Positions 1 through 12,852 of a DNA stretch of 64,000 nt are shown in pieces. A model generated the notes under the pieces. That model saw only the letters and a program-made list of their open reading frames with translations. It made no database searches and was not told the DNA's origin. The DNA comes from Chitinophaga pinensis (GTDB lineage: Bacteria; Pseudomonadota; Gammaproteobacteria; Burkholderiales; Burkholderiaceae_C). The DNA lies in the NCBI GenBank assembly GCA_943326015.2, contig CALPRQ020000003.1, forward strand, positions 62,001 to 126,000. The letters are read 5' to 3'. Every line of letters begins with the position of its first letter. Position 1 is the first letter of the stretch. A program made the position numbers and the translations under genes.

Positions 1-115
1 TGATTGGAGTTGAAGGTATGTCACAGGATGTCAAGCCAACCGGCGTCACCGGTCCAACTTGACAGCTGCACTTGGATGTTCAACCTCATGGACACCTCCA
101 GGATACTGTACGACA

Positions 116-124
116 TTGCTAACA
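116..124 (+). repeat. TTGCTAACA direct repeat, upstream copy
   Basis: First of two identical 9-base copies; the other is at 230-238. The offset is exactly 114 bases, a multiple of three. It ends in ACA, like the ACA motifs thought to allow template jumping in DRT2 RNAs. The reading frame across it is Leu-Leu-Thr in both copies. Confidence 0.75.
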
Positions 125-229
125 CGCGTGGCTAGGTGGCGTTTTGTACGCTGCTCGATGGTGATGATTAGTCATCAGTTAAGCCGGGGAGAGTACCAAC
201 GATTGCCACGGTCTTATCTCTTCCCGGTT
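116..229 (+). other. Putative neo repeat unit: 38-codon stop-free template
   Basis: Read in the frame starting at 116, this 114-base unit encodes 38 residues, beginning LLTRVARWRF and ending SYLFPV. Joined end to end it re-enters the same frame with no stop, so a concatemeric cDNA would encode an endless repeat protein. The other two forward frames have stops (TAA at 120-122, TAG at 132-134). All three reverse frames have stops as well (complements of CTA at 119 and 132, and TCA at 172). In-frame ATG codons at 158 and 164 could start translation. In the genome the frame is open from 14 to 244. The function is inferred from DRT2; length, phase and openness are seen. Confidence 0.6.
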
Positions 230-238
230 TTGCTAACA
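230..238 (+). repeat. TTGCTAACA direct repeat, downstream copy
   Basis: Second identical copy, immediately after the long hairpin 181-230 and 17 bases before the RT start codon. It is the likely 3' limit of the reverse-transcribed template if the DRT2 model holds. Confidence 0.75.
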
Positions 239-254
239 GCAGGGTAGGTTTTCG

Positions 255-1532
255 GTGACAGCAGATCCTCCGAAATGGTTCAGACAGCGTCGGTATCTCC
301 ACTTTGACGAACCGCTCAGTTTACCGAAGGCTGCAGCTTTAGTCAAAAATCCAATATCTGTTGCTACGCATGCGTTCTGGCCGCTTTTAAGATTCACAAT
401 CCAGACATCAAAGATCAAGCACGATAAGGCTGCCAAAGAATTGAAGCAGCATGCAAAAGACCGGGTAATATCGTATGCTGCGCATAGCGACTCGCAGATC
501 TTCGCATACTACTGTGAATTGCTATCAAAGTTATATGAATATGAGATCAAGGCTCGTGGCCTGACCGATGTAGTCTTGGCTTTTCGGTCACTCGGCAAGA
601 GCAACATCGACTTCGCGAAAGATGCCTTCGACGAGATTCGGTCAAGATACGAGTGCGTGGCAGTTGCGCTAGATGTAACCAAATTCTTCGACACGATTAA
701 CCATGCTCAGCTGAAAGTTCACTGGAAAAATCTACTCGGCGTGAGCGAGTTACCTCCCGATCACTTTGCGGTCTTTCGAGCGCTGACTCGTTATGCTGCT
801 GCGGAGCGGGATGAGGTCTTTGCTGCACTGGGGATCTCACTCAACAACCCCAGGGCTGATCGCCGCAGGCTTTGCGAGCCGACCGAGTTCAGATCGCTAG
901 TGCGGGCCAATAATCTCGTTAGGCGGAATCCTAACGCTTCCGGCATACCTCAAGGAACTGCAATCAGCGCGATGCTGTCAAACCTCTATATGCTGGATTT
1001 CGACATTGCTGCCCTATCCTTCGCCAACGCTAGTGGCGGTCGGTATATGCGCTATTGCGACGATATGCTATTCATCATGCCAAAAGGCATGACCTCCGCC
1101 ATTGAATCATTCGCCGATACACAAATCAGGCGCATGAAGCTTGAGATAAATTTAGACAAAACGGATCGGTGCAATTTTACGACATCATCAGGAATACTGA
1201 CGAGCGATAAGCCGCTACAGTATCTAGGTTTCTTGTTTGATGGGCAACGCGTGATCATCCGCTCGGCGGCTTTTGCCAAGTTCTCTAATCGCATGAAGCG
1301 CGGCGTGAGTCTTGCGAAGCAAACAATGCGCAGCCGCAATAAGGCTCGGGTTCAGTTGGGGGCTGAAGAGCATAAGCTTTACCTAAAGAAGCTGTACGCT
1401 CGTTACTCGCATCTAGGCAAGCGTAATTTTGTTCGCTACGGCTACAATGCCTCGTACATTATGAAATCCTCAGCTATTCGACGCCAACTTCGCCCTCTCT
1501 GGGACCGGTTGCAGCAGGCGATCAGCAAGTAG
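255..1532 (+). CDS. Antiviral reverse transcriptase, DRT2-like
   Basis: A 425-residue reverse transcriptase with no extra enzymatic domain. Motif A is ALDVTKFFD (about 138-146). Motif B is GIPQGTAISAMLSNLYM (230-246). The catalytic motif C is YCDD (267-270). Motif D-like LEINLDKTD and a YLGF segment follow. The N-terminus, with KWFRQRRYLHFDEPL, resembles defence-associated 'unknown group' RTs rather than retron or group II intron RTs, and no maturase domain is seen. Size, single-gene layout and a structured upstream RNA fit DRT2 (UG2). The start is GTG at 255, preceded by a GGGTAGG stretch at 242-248. GC is well below that of the core genes, suggesting transfer. Family assignment is by recognition, not a search; DRT2 versus another UG clade is the main uncertainty. 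Confidence 0.8.
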   Translation: MTADPPKWFRQRRYLHFDEPLSLPKAAALVKNPISVATHAFWPLLRFTIQTSKIKHDKAAKELKQHAKDRVISYAAHSDSQIFAYYCELLSKLYEYEIKARGLTDVVLAFRSLGKSNIDFAKDAFDEIRSRYECVAVALDVTKFFDTINHAQLKVHWKNLLGVSELPPDHFAVFRALTRYAAAERDEVFAALGISLNNPRADRRRLCEPTEFRSLVRANNLVRRNPNASGIPQGTAISAMLSNLYMLDFDIAALSFANASGGRYMRYCDDMLFIMPKGMTSAIESFADTQIRRMKLEINLDKTDRCNFTTSSGILTSDKPLQYLGFLFDGQRVIIRSAAFAKFSNRMKRGVSLAKQTMRSRNKARVQLGAEEHKLYLKKLYARYSHLGKRNFVRYGYNASYIMKSSAIRRQLRPLWDRLQQAISK

Positions 1533-1853
1533 CCGAAAGGGCGGATTAAAATCTGAAGTGGCGCATCGTAATGTAAGCCAATGTCGCCGCAGCCCAGAAC
1601 CTACCGCTAACTCCACCCCGAAGACCGCGTGAGACTCTAGCCAGCCTCAAGCAGCGGAACTGCAGGGGGGGGGGGTGAAATTGCGAACGTATTCGGTCAC
1701 TCAGCCAGTACCAGGAGCCTTGAGCTGCGCCATAACGCATGTGCTGGTGAATACGGAAATGCTACAGCCCAGCACTCCTGCGAGCGTCGGCGCGAGCAGT
1801 CCCGGCACTTGCGTAAACTGCACGACGACGCTCTTTTTCGCCATTTGAATAAA
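1533..1853. other. Gene-poor spacer with an 11-G homopolymer
   Basis: About 320 bases between the RT and the first AT-rich gene. It contains a run of 11 G at 1665-1675. A 47-codon minus-strand reading frame (1701-1844, starting MAKKSVVVQF) has no recognisable relative and no clear ribosome binding site. No RNA gene or terminator with a T-tract was recognised. Confidence 0.5.
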
Positions 1854-2123
1854 ATGAAATATTTGGTATTTTTCTTTATAGTTTTTTTCTCATCGCTCGC
1901 TTTTTCTCAAAATAAAAATTGCGTAGCGCTATCAAATTTGGTATACGATATTTCAAAAGCAAGAGATAATGGAGTTCCAAAATCCGCCATGGAAGCTGGG
2001 ATTGACAGAAACATTCATGATATGGAAATGAAAGCATTCTCCATAACAATGATCAACATAATTTATAGAGAAAATCATGACGGCGAGGCACTAAGACGTG
2101 CAGTCTTAAAAAATTGCAAGTAA
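1854..2123 (+). CDS. Small secreted protein, paralogue of the next gene
   Basis: An 89-residue protein with a clear signal peptide (MKYLVFFFIVFFSSLAFSQ). The mature part has one cysteine near each end and the pattern C-x(11)-IxxxRDxGxPK ... IIYxE ... KxC. The same pattern occurs in the product of 2199-2510, so the two are diverged tandem duplicates. Start ATG 1854 is chosen because the signal peptide begins there; an in-frame upstream extension adds an unlikely polar leader. The function is unknown. Two-cysteine secreted proteins with an RD-G motif recur in proteobacterial islands. Codon use is very AT-rich, unlike the flanking chromosome. Confidence 0.65.
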   Translation: MKYLVFFFIVFFSSLAFSQNKNCVALSNLVYDISKARDNGVPKSAMEAGIDRNIHDMEMKAFSITMINIIYRENHDGEALRRAVLKNCK

Positions 2124-10668: not shown

Positions 10669-12852
10669 ATGGCGCACGACCACTGGATCACGGGCTGGCA
10701 GCGGGCACGCAACCATGAAGGCTTCACGCGTGGCATGCAGGCCCTGCTGGCGCTTGGCTGCGTGCTCGCGCTGGGCTGGCAGCAGGACTGGCAGGACGAA
10801 TTGATGCCGGTGGTGCTAGGCGTGATGGCCTGCGCCTTCACCGAGACCGATGACGCCTGGCGCGGGCGTCTCAAGACGCTGCTGCTGGCGCTGAGCAGCT
10901 TCAGCCTGATGATGACGGCAGTCTGGCTCACCTTGCCATGGCCGGCGCTGCTGGCCGCCGTGCTGGCGCTGTCGGCCTTCGCGCTCACGATGCTGGGCGC
11001 CCTGGGCGAACGCTACCGGGCGCTCGCCTTCGGCTCGCTGGTGCTGTTCATCTACTCGGCCTTGTCGGCCAGAAGCCACCGGGAACAGGCGTTCGAGCTC
11101 GCGCCCTATCTGCTCGGTGGCGCGATTTGGTACGGCCTGGTGTCACTGCTGTGGGCTGCGGCCTGGCCCAAGCCGACGGTCCGCTATCGACTGTCGCTGC
11201 TCTATGCCCTGCTGGGCGAATACCTGCGGCTCAAGGCCCGGCTGCTGGAGCCGGTGCGAGGCGTGGACCGCCAGCGCCGCCGGCTGGAACTCGCGCTGCA
11301 CAACGGCCGCGTGGTCGATGCGCTCAATGCCGCCAAGGAGAGCCTGTTCAGCCGGATCGCTGGCGGCGAACCACCGGCCTGGCTCAGCGAGGCCATGCAC
11401 CAGTACCTGGCGGCGCAGGACATCCACGAACGTACCAGCAGCTCGCACGAGAGCTACACCCTGCTGGCCGATGCCTTCGCGCGCTCGGACGCACTCTACC
11501 GCTGCCAGCGCGTGCTCAGCGTGCTGGGCGAACAGGCGCTCAAGTTCGCGCAGGCGATCCGTGAGCGCACGCCGCCGCGCCACGAGGGCCAGACCGCGCG
11601 GGCGATCGAGGACATGCAGGCCGCCATCGCCTACCTGGAGGCGAGCCGTTCGCCCTGCCCCGCGCCGCGTCCCATGCAGGCGCTGCACGCCCTGGGCGAC
11701 AACCTGACCGGGCTGGCCAGGGTCTTCGCCAGCGCGCTGCGCGGCGGCGCGGCACCCGACCTGTCGCTGGTCGATCATCAGGTGCACAGCCTGGGCGAGG
11801 CCTGGCGCCTCATCCGCGCCCAGCTCAAGCTGCATTCCGCCCTGATGCGTCACGCCTTGCGCCTGAGCCTGGTGCTGCTGACGGCGTTCGGCGTCATGCA
11901 AGCGACCCATGACCCGCATGGCTACTGGATCGTGCTGACCGTGGTGTTTGCCAGCCAGCCACAATACGCGGCGACGCTCAGCCGGGTCGGCCTGCGCGCA
12001 CTCGGAACGGTGTTCGGCCTGGTGATGGGCTGGGCGCTGATCCGGCTCTTTCCGGGGCCGCTGCTGCAGGCCGTCTGCATGGTGCTGGCCGGGGCGCTCT
12101 TCATCGGCAAGCGCATGACCGATATCCGGATCGCGACCGGTGCCATGACCACGCTGGTGCTGCTGAGCTTTCACCAGATGGGCATGTCGCAGGGCGTGAT
12201 CCCGGCGCGCCTGCTCGACACCGCGATCGGCAGCGTGATCGCCGGCCTGGGAGCCTGGCTGATCCTGCCCAACTGGCAGGCGCGGCACTGGCCCCGGCTG
12301 GCGGCCCAGACCCTGCGCGCCCAGGCCGGCTACCTGCACGCGATCCTGGATCAATACCGCGAAGGCAAGCAGGACCACCTGGCCTACCGGCAGGCGCGGC
12401 GCCACGCACACAACGCGGAAGCCGCGCTGTGCAACGCCTATGCCGCGATGCGCAAGGAACCCGAAGGCAAACGGCTGAACATGACGGCCAGCGCCCGCTT
12501 CCTGGTGCTGACGCATATGCTGCAGAACTACCTGTCGGCGCTGGGCGCGCACCGGGGCGAACTGGAAGCCGGCGCGCTGGATGAGTCGAGCCGACAGATG
12601 GCCGATCGGCTGCAGCAAGGGCTGGAGCGGCTGGCCCAGCGGCTCGAAACGGGACACAGGATAGGTGAAGTGACGTCTGGGCAACAGCCGGCGCAGGCCG
12701 TTGCAGAGCAGCCGCTGATGCCCGAGCCCCGTTCAGCGACGGCCGAGCCGGTCAGCCTGCTGCAGGCCCAGCTCGACCTGGCCAGCCGGCTGCTGCCCGA
12801 ACTCGAGCAGCAGGCGCCGCTGCTGCGCCGGACGCGCCAGACCGGCCCCTAG
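10669..12852 (+). CDS. FUSC-family (YccS/YhfK-like) inner-membrane protein
   Basis: A 727-residue protein with two blocks of hydrophobic helices, at about 25-160 and 380-525, each followed by a cytoplasmic helical region. The second block has the FUSC pattern HGYWIVLTVVFASQPQYAATLSR and RALGTVFGLVMGWAL. Relatives include YccS and the aromatic-acid efflux protein AaeB; the substrate is unknown. It sits 12 bases after tolA, where tolB would be expected, probably in the same transcript. It converges on dnaE. Confidence 0.88.
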   Translation: MAHDHWITGWQRARNHEGFTRGMQALLALGCVLALGWQQDWQDELMPVVLGVMACAFTETDDAWRGRLKTLLLALSSFSLMMTAVWLTLPWPALLAAVLALSAFALTMLGALGERYRALAFGSLVLFIYSALSARSHREQAFELAPYLLGGAIWYGLVSLLWAAAWPKPTVRYRLSLLYALLGEYLRLKARLLEPVRGVDRQRRRLELALHNGRVVDALNAAKESLFSRIAGGEPPAWLSEAMHQYLAAQDIHERTSSSHESYTLLADAFARSDALYRCQRVLSVLGEQALKFAQAIRERTPPRHEGQTARAIEDMQAAIAYLEASRSPCPAPRPMQALHALGDNLTGLARVFASALRGGAAPDLSLVDHQVHSLGEAWRLIRAQLKLHSALMRHALRLSLVLLTAFGVMQATHDPHGYWIVLTVVFASQPQYAATLSRVGLRALGTVFGLVMGWALIRLFPGPLLQAVCMVLAGALFIGKRMTDIRIATGAMTTLVLLSFHQMGMSQGVIPARLLDTAIGSVIAGLGAWLILPNWQARHWPRLAAQTLRAQAGYLHAILDQYREGKQDHLAYRQARRHAHNAEAALCNAYAAMRKEPEGKRLNMTASARFLVLTHMLQNYLSALGAHRGELEAGALDESSRQMADRLQQGLERLAQRLETGHRIGEVTSGQQPAQAVAEQPLMPEPRSATAEPVSLLQAQLDLASRLLPELEQQAPLLRRTRQTGP

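Follow-up and report, generated by a model that had tools for sequence, protein, structure and literature searches.

We find that the window (the whole 64-kb stretch of DNA analysed here) begins with what is, with a probability of about 0.92, a complete DRT2 system, in which the putative template at positions 23-121 would be copied by template jumping into an endless antisense gene for a 33-residue repeat protein, Neo. Judged by its sequence, the locus is a DRT2 phage-defence system of known kind: it combines a Drt2 (UG2) family reverse transcriptase (RT) with an intact active site, an upstream noncoding RNA (ncRNA) with a pseudoknotted scaffold, an ACA-bracketed template, a stop-free antisense frame whose length is a multiple of three (3n), and a predicted promoter that exists only at the junction of successive repeats. 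The preliminary description of this DNA had called the RT DRT2-like, and profile searches agree, the PADLOC Drt2 models scoring 626 (PDLC02173) and 498 bits, compared with 88 bits for the best other family, RT_UG17, and the NCBIfam Drt2 model NF041746 scoring 563.5 bits against a cut-off of 390. RT residues 4-424 match three distinct PDB chains (453, 453 and 446 bits), two of them named Drt2 and one RNA-dependent DNA polymerase; we take 9c0i to be the Klebsiella DRT2 enzyme. Residues D140, D269 and D270 are invariant across 12 aligned RTs, that of the window among them, and both the DDD triad and the YCDD motif are intact.

The elements of the locus are collected in Table 1. Upstream of the RT gene, the Rfam model RT-12 (RF03016) matches end to end; the model describes the 3' scaffold from UAACA on only, with template and 5' handle lying outside it, and, given that it starts with UAACA, whose last three bases correspond to the second ACA motif, it covers the 3' part of the RNA. 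From its position and fold, we infer that RT-12 corresponds to the 3' scaffold described in published work on the DRT2 RNA. The whole ncRNA would be roughly 245-250 nt long (about window -9 to 238) and be followed by the RT gene; the hidden gene of the locus thus described sits partly at the window's edge, and the other strand of the handle (about window -6 to 0; 7994-8000 of L002, the window's locus) precedes base 1 of the window. Among the five loci that share a 99-nt template, the handle comprises seven pairs, five of which have changed on both sides, and all of its cells (100%) remain paired; the closing stem is likewise 100% paired and the buttress 90%, while the closing stem and the pseudoknot are uninformative in this set because they are invariant. 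A wider alignment of 14 loci (A2, from which L030 was excluded because its contig begins at ACA-1) shows the pseudoknot paired in 14/14 with two covarying pairs, and the tower, in which eight pairs have changed on both sides, paired in 92.8% of cells; pairing is lower where the alignment is poor, i.e. 58.2% for the handle, 64.3% for the closing stem and 43.4% for the buttress. The fold of the whole RNA has a z-score of -2.35 relative to shuffled sequences, 5 of 200 of which fold as well.

Table 1. Elements of the DRT2 locus, in window coordinates.
Feature	Position	Strand	Basis or remark
5' handle hairpin, 3' part	1-15	+	stem CTTCAAC/GTTGAAG
Predicted template-closing stem, 5' strand	18-22	+	ATGTC pairs with GACAT at 112-116
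ACA-1, template 5' end, predicted jump donor	23-25	+	homology with PMC12039810 and PMC11100668
Predicted template, 99 nt	23-121	-	concatenated reverse complement is the predicted neo, 33 codons, MRLNIQVQLSSWTGDAGWLDILLAMSYSILEVS, stop-free across the junction
-35 element TTGACA of the predicted junction promoter	29-34	-	
Predicted neo start codon ATG	87-89	-	
GGAGG, ribosome-site-like, before the neo ATG	95-99	-	
-10 element TACAGT	105-110	-	17-base spacing from the -35 arises only at the predicted junction
Predicted primer-binding site	115-119	+	counterpart of Klebsiella bases 142-146, placed by homology (PMC12039810; PMC12596737)
TTGCTAACA, copy 1	116-124	+	part of predicted primer site, template end and ACA-2
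RT-12 RNA (RF03016), 3' scaffold	120-236	+	72 bits, gathering score 44.2; contains nearly all of the 114-base unit
ACA-2, predicted jump acceptor	122-124	+	RT-12 positions 3-5
Scaffold pseudoknot	128-132/205-209	+	
Scaffold buttress	136-141/149-154	+	
Scaffold small hairpin	162-165/171-174	+	
Scaffold tower	184-193/218-227	+	
TTGCTAACA, copy 2	230-238	+	tower base 3' strand and beyond; repeat not conserved
RT ORF, DRT2 reverse transcriptase, 425 aa, YCDD	255-1532	+	profile searches, RT alignment, PDB chain matches

The conspicuous structure next to the RT gene is a different one from the predicted template. As the preliminary description stated, TTGCTAACA occurs twice with starts 114 bases apart, and it is absent elsewhere in the 64-kb window on both strands; equally, the 114-base unit that it delimits (116-229) has one sense frame without stops round the circle (LLTRVARWRFVRCSMVMISHQLSRGEYQRLPRSYLFPV) and stops in the five other frames. 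The same description cautioned that chance was not negligible, and rightly so: among 3000 dinucleotide shuffles of bases 1-254, 153 contain a directly repeated 9-mer whose copies are at least 60 bases apart and 29 contain one that is also spaced by 3n and has an open sense frame, and shuffling the unit itself leaves a sense frame open in 1435 of 3000 cases, so that the repeat does not clearly exceed chance. Reading this unit as the template for a sense-coded 38-residue repeat has in its favor the exact 9-mer pair, the 3n spacing and the single open sense frame, as well as the overlap of the first copy with the predicted jump site; yet the unit coincides with the RT-12 scaffold, with its conserved stems and pseudoknot, and the published neo gene is antisense to the ncRNA and lies upstream of the scaffold part (PMC12039810), unlike the sense-strand Neo proposed. 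The proposed check on relatives, namely that the unit should stay 3n and stop-free, also failed: among 18 loci (window included, the unit being placed by RT-12 coordinates) its length varies between 108 and 134 bases and is a multiple of three in 7, a sense frame is open in 4, and the identical 9-mer pair exists in the window alone. We therefore regard this reading as almost certainly wrong with respect to the template, whereas the template-jumping, endless-ORF anatomy and a Neo length unlike that of Klebsiella, both part of the original proposal, do stand. One edge of the unit is in fact a predicted jump site, given that the first copy covers part of the predicted primer site and ACA-2. The second copy was also considered as a functional partner of the first and rejected, the two copies differing in 17/17 relatives.

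Most likely, the endless gene hidden at this locus consists of a repeated stretch of 33 codons, which is read from the opposite strand and lies immediately upstream of the unit discussed above. In order to place the template we applied a rule that is blind to reading frame, whereby the best upstream match to ACA-N3-TGTCAA with at most one mismatch marks its start and the unit ends before RT-12 position 3 (L019 has two ACA-1 candidates within one mismatch, of which the exact one was used). When applied to the loci with a gathering-level RT-12 match, i.e. seven, with the window among them as L002, plus eight from a second scan, the rule yields units that are 3n and antisense-open across the junction in 15/15 cases, which are not 15 independent tests because the loci are related. 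Their lengths are 99 nt in five, 111 nt in two, 117 nt in seven and 132 nt in one. A -10-like hexamer stands 17 bases from the -35 across the junction in all 15 (TATAAT in nine, TACAGT in four including the window, TACAAT and TATAGT in one each), the -35 itself being TTGACA in 13 and TGGACA in two; the TACAGT of the window is two bases off TATAAT. RT-12 positions 3-5 read ACA in 13 of the 15, ATA in L019 and GCA in L030. Gathering-level matches were lacking in the scanned loci L005, L017, L021, L022, L026, L034, L035 and L036, and the scan left out L006-L011, L033 and L037-L106. One antisense frame of the concatenated 99-nt template is open in the window, and the openness of that frame by itself says little, as it recurs in 1829 of 3000 shuffles of this template; a sense frame is open as well in 12 of the 15 templates. 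Were the ACA at window 62-64 used instead of ACA-1, the unit would be 60 nt, likewise 3n and antisense-open, but with AAGTGC where the -35 should be. The case for the predicted template rests on its length, the junction promoter, the motif positions and the RNA fold together, plus the published experiments on homologues.

The loci with 99-nt templates (the window, L003, L013, L014 and L015) are the shortest template group among the loci studied here, with 33 codons. Compared with the window, the other four have near-identical junction regions and RTs that are 63-75% identical, and they differ from it at 7 to 21 template bases and 4 to 9 Neo amino acids; the predicted Neo is MRLNIQVQLSSWTGDAGWLDILLAMSYSILEVS in the window, MKLNIQVELSSLTGEAGWLDILLAMSYSILEVS in L013, MKLNIQVQLSSLTGGAGWLDILLAMSYNFLEFT in L003, MRLRFQVQWSSWIGMAGWLDILLTMSYSYLETT in L014 and MRLRFQVQWSSLPGMAGWLDILLAMSYSYLETT in L015. 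In a tree of 25 RTs these five loci form one group (100/100), several deeper forks being unsettled; of the 20 RTs outside the group, 12 have a measured template, none of 99 nt. Variable sites fall on the three codon positions in the ratio 11/9/9, without third-position bias, and this absence speaks for the notion that the cDNA repeats of the group act as DNA or RNA without any Neo protein. Such a role is nonetheless highly improbable in view of several observations: the five templates align without indels at a fixed length of 99 while the buttress loop has indels across the same loci, the neo frame alone lacks stops in all five templates, its codon differences include the fewest replacements (80) and the most silent changes (36) of the six frames, a ribosome-site-like GGAGG and an ATG are present in the window, and Klebsiella defence is abolished by stop codons and kept with synonymous changes (PMC12039810). 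Fewer amino-acid changes than under a random null (P<0.05) are seen in 7 of 10 pairs, which are non-independent, and not in the other three.

A Neo protein made by template jumping thus remains our preferred reading, and its steps would be as follows. The RT would bind the 5' handle and the RT-12 scaffold, prime at 115-119 and extend the cDNA as far as 23, and the terminal TGT synthesized on ACA-1 (23-25) would re-anneal to ACA-2 (122-124), giving rise to tandem 99-base repeats. Once double-stranded, these repeats would carry TTGACA-17-TACAGT at each junction and could drive an antisense mRNA with GGAGG and ATG, to be translated into a stop-free 33-residue repeat protein, expected to arrest the growth of the infected cell. 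Whereas the RT family, the RNA fold, the motif positions and the 3n stop-free antisense frame kept in relatives are observed features, the priming, jumping, phage induction, expression, translation and toxicity that we envisage are presumed from published homologues. In those systems, neo is antisense to the ncRNA, the template is ACA-flanked and 3n, and the promoter spans the junction (PMC12039810; PMC11100668). The Klebsiella pneumoniae system, compared with the window by way of its published descriptions (PMC12039810; PMC11100668), has an RT of the same family and the same length of 425 aa with D140/D269/D270 numbering, a 5' handle, a two-ACA template, a pseudoknotted 3' scaffold, a junction promoter and an antisense 3n neo; it differs in that its template is 120 nt (40 codons) rather than 99 nt (33 codons), in the Neo sequence and in the -10, which is TACAGT in the window. 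Similarly, the E. coli drt2 loci L023 and L025 and the viral-contig loci L027-L029, L031 and L032 share the RT-12 scaffold and a 3n antisense-open template with the window, but the latter is 117 nt and codes for another Neo sequence (ETLYNV...).

These findings add to DRT2 a group of five loci whose predicted Neo has 33 codons, and they bear on the minimum length of the Neo repeat because that is shorter than the templates named in the text of PMC12039810, which gives 120 nt, mostly 117 nt and several of 111 or 129 nt, 99 not being named. PMC11100668 maps Neo over a larger DRT2 tree and notes that its annotation is harder in divergent clades. A 99-nt class was not found in titles or abstract openings on DRT2 and Neo, and may already be published, for example in that larger tree. 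Our findings also carry a practical warning, namely that in these DRT2 loci the conspicuous structure adjoining the RT is the scaffold, and that the hidden gene is to be sought upstream, on the other strand.

Of three loci that were measured below the RT-12 gathering score (L004, L016 and L020), one fits the template rule, L004 having an antisense-open unit of 132 nt, and two, both divergent DRT2-like loci, are apparently 3n+1. The predicted template of L016 (G687:C4, 1223-1355) is 133 nt long and has no endless frame; in L020 (Nitratidesulfovibrio vulgaris DP4 plasmid pDVUL01) the rule finds no ACA-1, and a looser one finds an ACT/ACT pair delimiting 145 nt at 2680-2824, the second ACT lying about 11 bases before the start of RT-12. 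Both loci have TTGACA-17-TATAAT across the predicted junction. A 3n+1 template would shift the frame at each turn, such that Neo would end after one or two junctions, and the antisense ORFs do so: that of L016 (AGGAG, then ATG; 69 aa) crosses one junction and stops, and that of L020 (AGGAGG, then GTG for 99 aa or the next ATG for 97 aa) crosses two and stops. It is conceivable, though in our estimation unlikely, that the 3n rule of neo has exceptions, in which case the Neo of L016 and L020 would have a set length (69 and 97 aa) and the window would belong to an endless branch. Fixed-length Neo, decay and a misplaced jump point are the candidate readings of these two templates. Avoidance of stop triplets over the three antisense frames was not seen (four triplets in L020 and nine in L016; fractions of 0.32 and 0.95, respectively, of 4000 shuffles have as few). 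No close relatives of L016 beyond itself were found in four genomes of its genus, nor any in viral contigs, and its plasmid matches are all under 60% identity; close relatives of L020 were likewise not found in the search made to test the 3n+1 lead.

The looser finder accepts any repeated trinucleotide together with TGTCAA and ATTATA with one mismatch, and its matches in L017 and L020 are to be taken as leads only because it also fires in 6 of 78 background windows; it had no match in L016 and L030, whose two trinucleotides are not the same, or in L021, L022, L026, L034, L035, L036 and L005. In L017 (G526, oriented 1193-1318), whose Rfam matches are weak ones to RT-8 and RT-1 and not to RT-12, this lead consists of a GTA/GTA pair round a 126-nt antisense-open unit, the product of which (...LDSLLEMIYY...) is similar to Neo at the junction.

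Searches with the window RT matched 3 of 399 genomes sampled from the family at E<=1e-60 and, at E<=1e-80, 4 of 399 sampled from the order and 2 of 369 sampled from the class, each count including the window's own genome; the RT-12 search of the phylum sample (378 genomes) found that genome alone. In viral contigs, close relatives were not found with either the window RT alone or the template pattern; a search with the RT alignment retrieved 80 loci, nine of which were scanned for RT-12 (L027-L032 and L034-L036), and seven of those matched. Within the sister genome G245, the locus is missing as part of a stretch that spans window -253 to 3410, homology breaking off at L002 7746 and restarting at 11411, G245 having some 2.8 kb of different sequence in between; the loci of other sister genomes end before the right-hand flank. 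One ORF of the replacement in G245 (L112 5686-8492) weakly resembles SIR2, at 25.8 bits against a cut-off of 24.5, and this may be a site where defence genes swap. The absence from one sister genome might also be taken as a sign that the locus is a relic, its parts present in a system that no longer works; this is very unlikely, however, considering that the RT is full length with YCDD intact and that ACA-1, ACA-2, the promoter parts, the stems and the open antisense frame are all there. The variable stretch also contains two small + strand ORFs with signal-like N-termini (window 1854-2123 and 2199-2510), for which there was no Pfam match at E<=0.1 and no NCBIfam match at E<=0.01. Between the RT and these ORFs lies a run of ten G (gggggggggg, window 1666-1675), possibly a slippery or assembly-sensitive spot.
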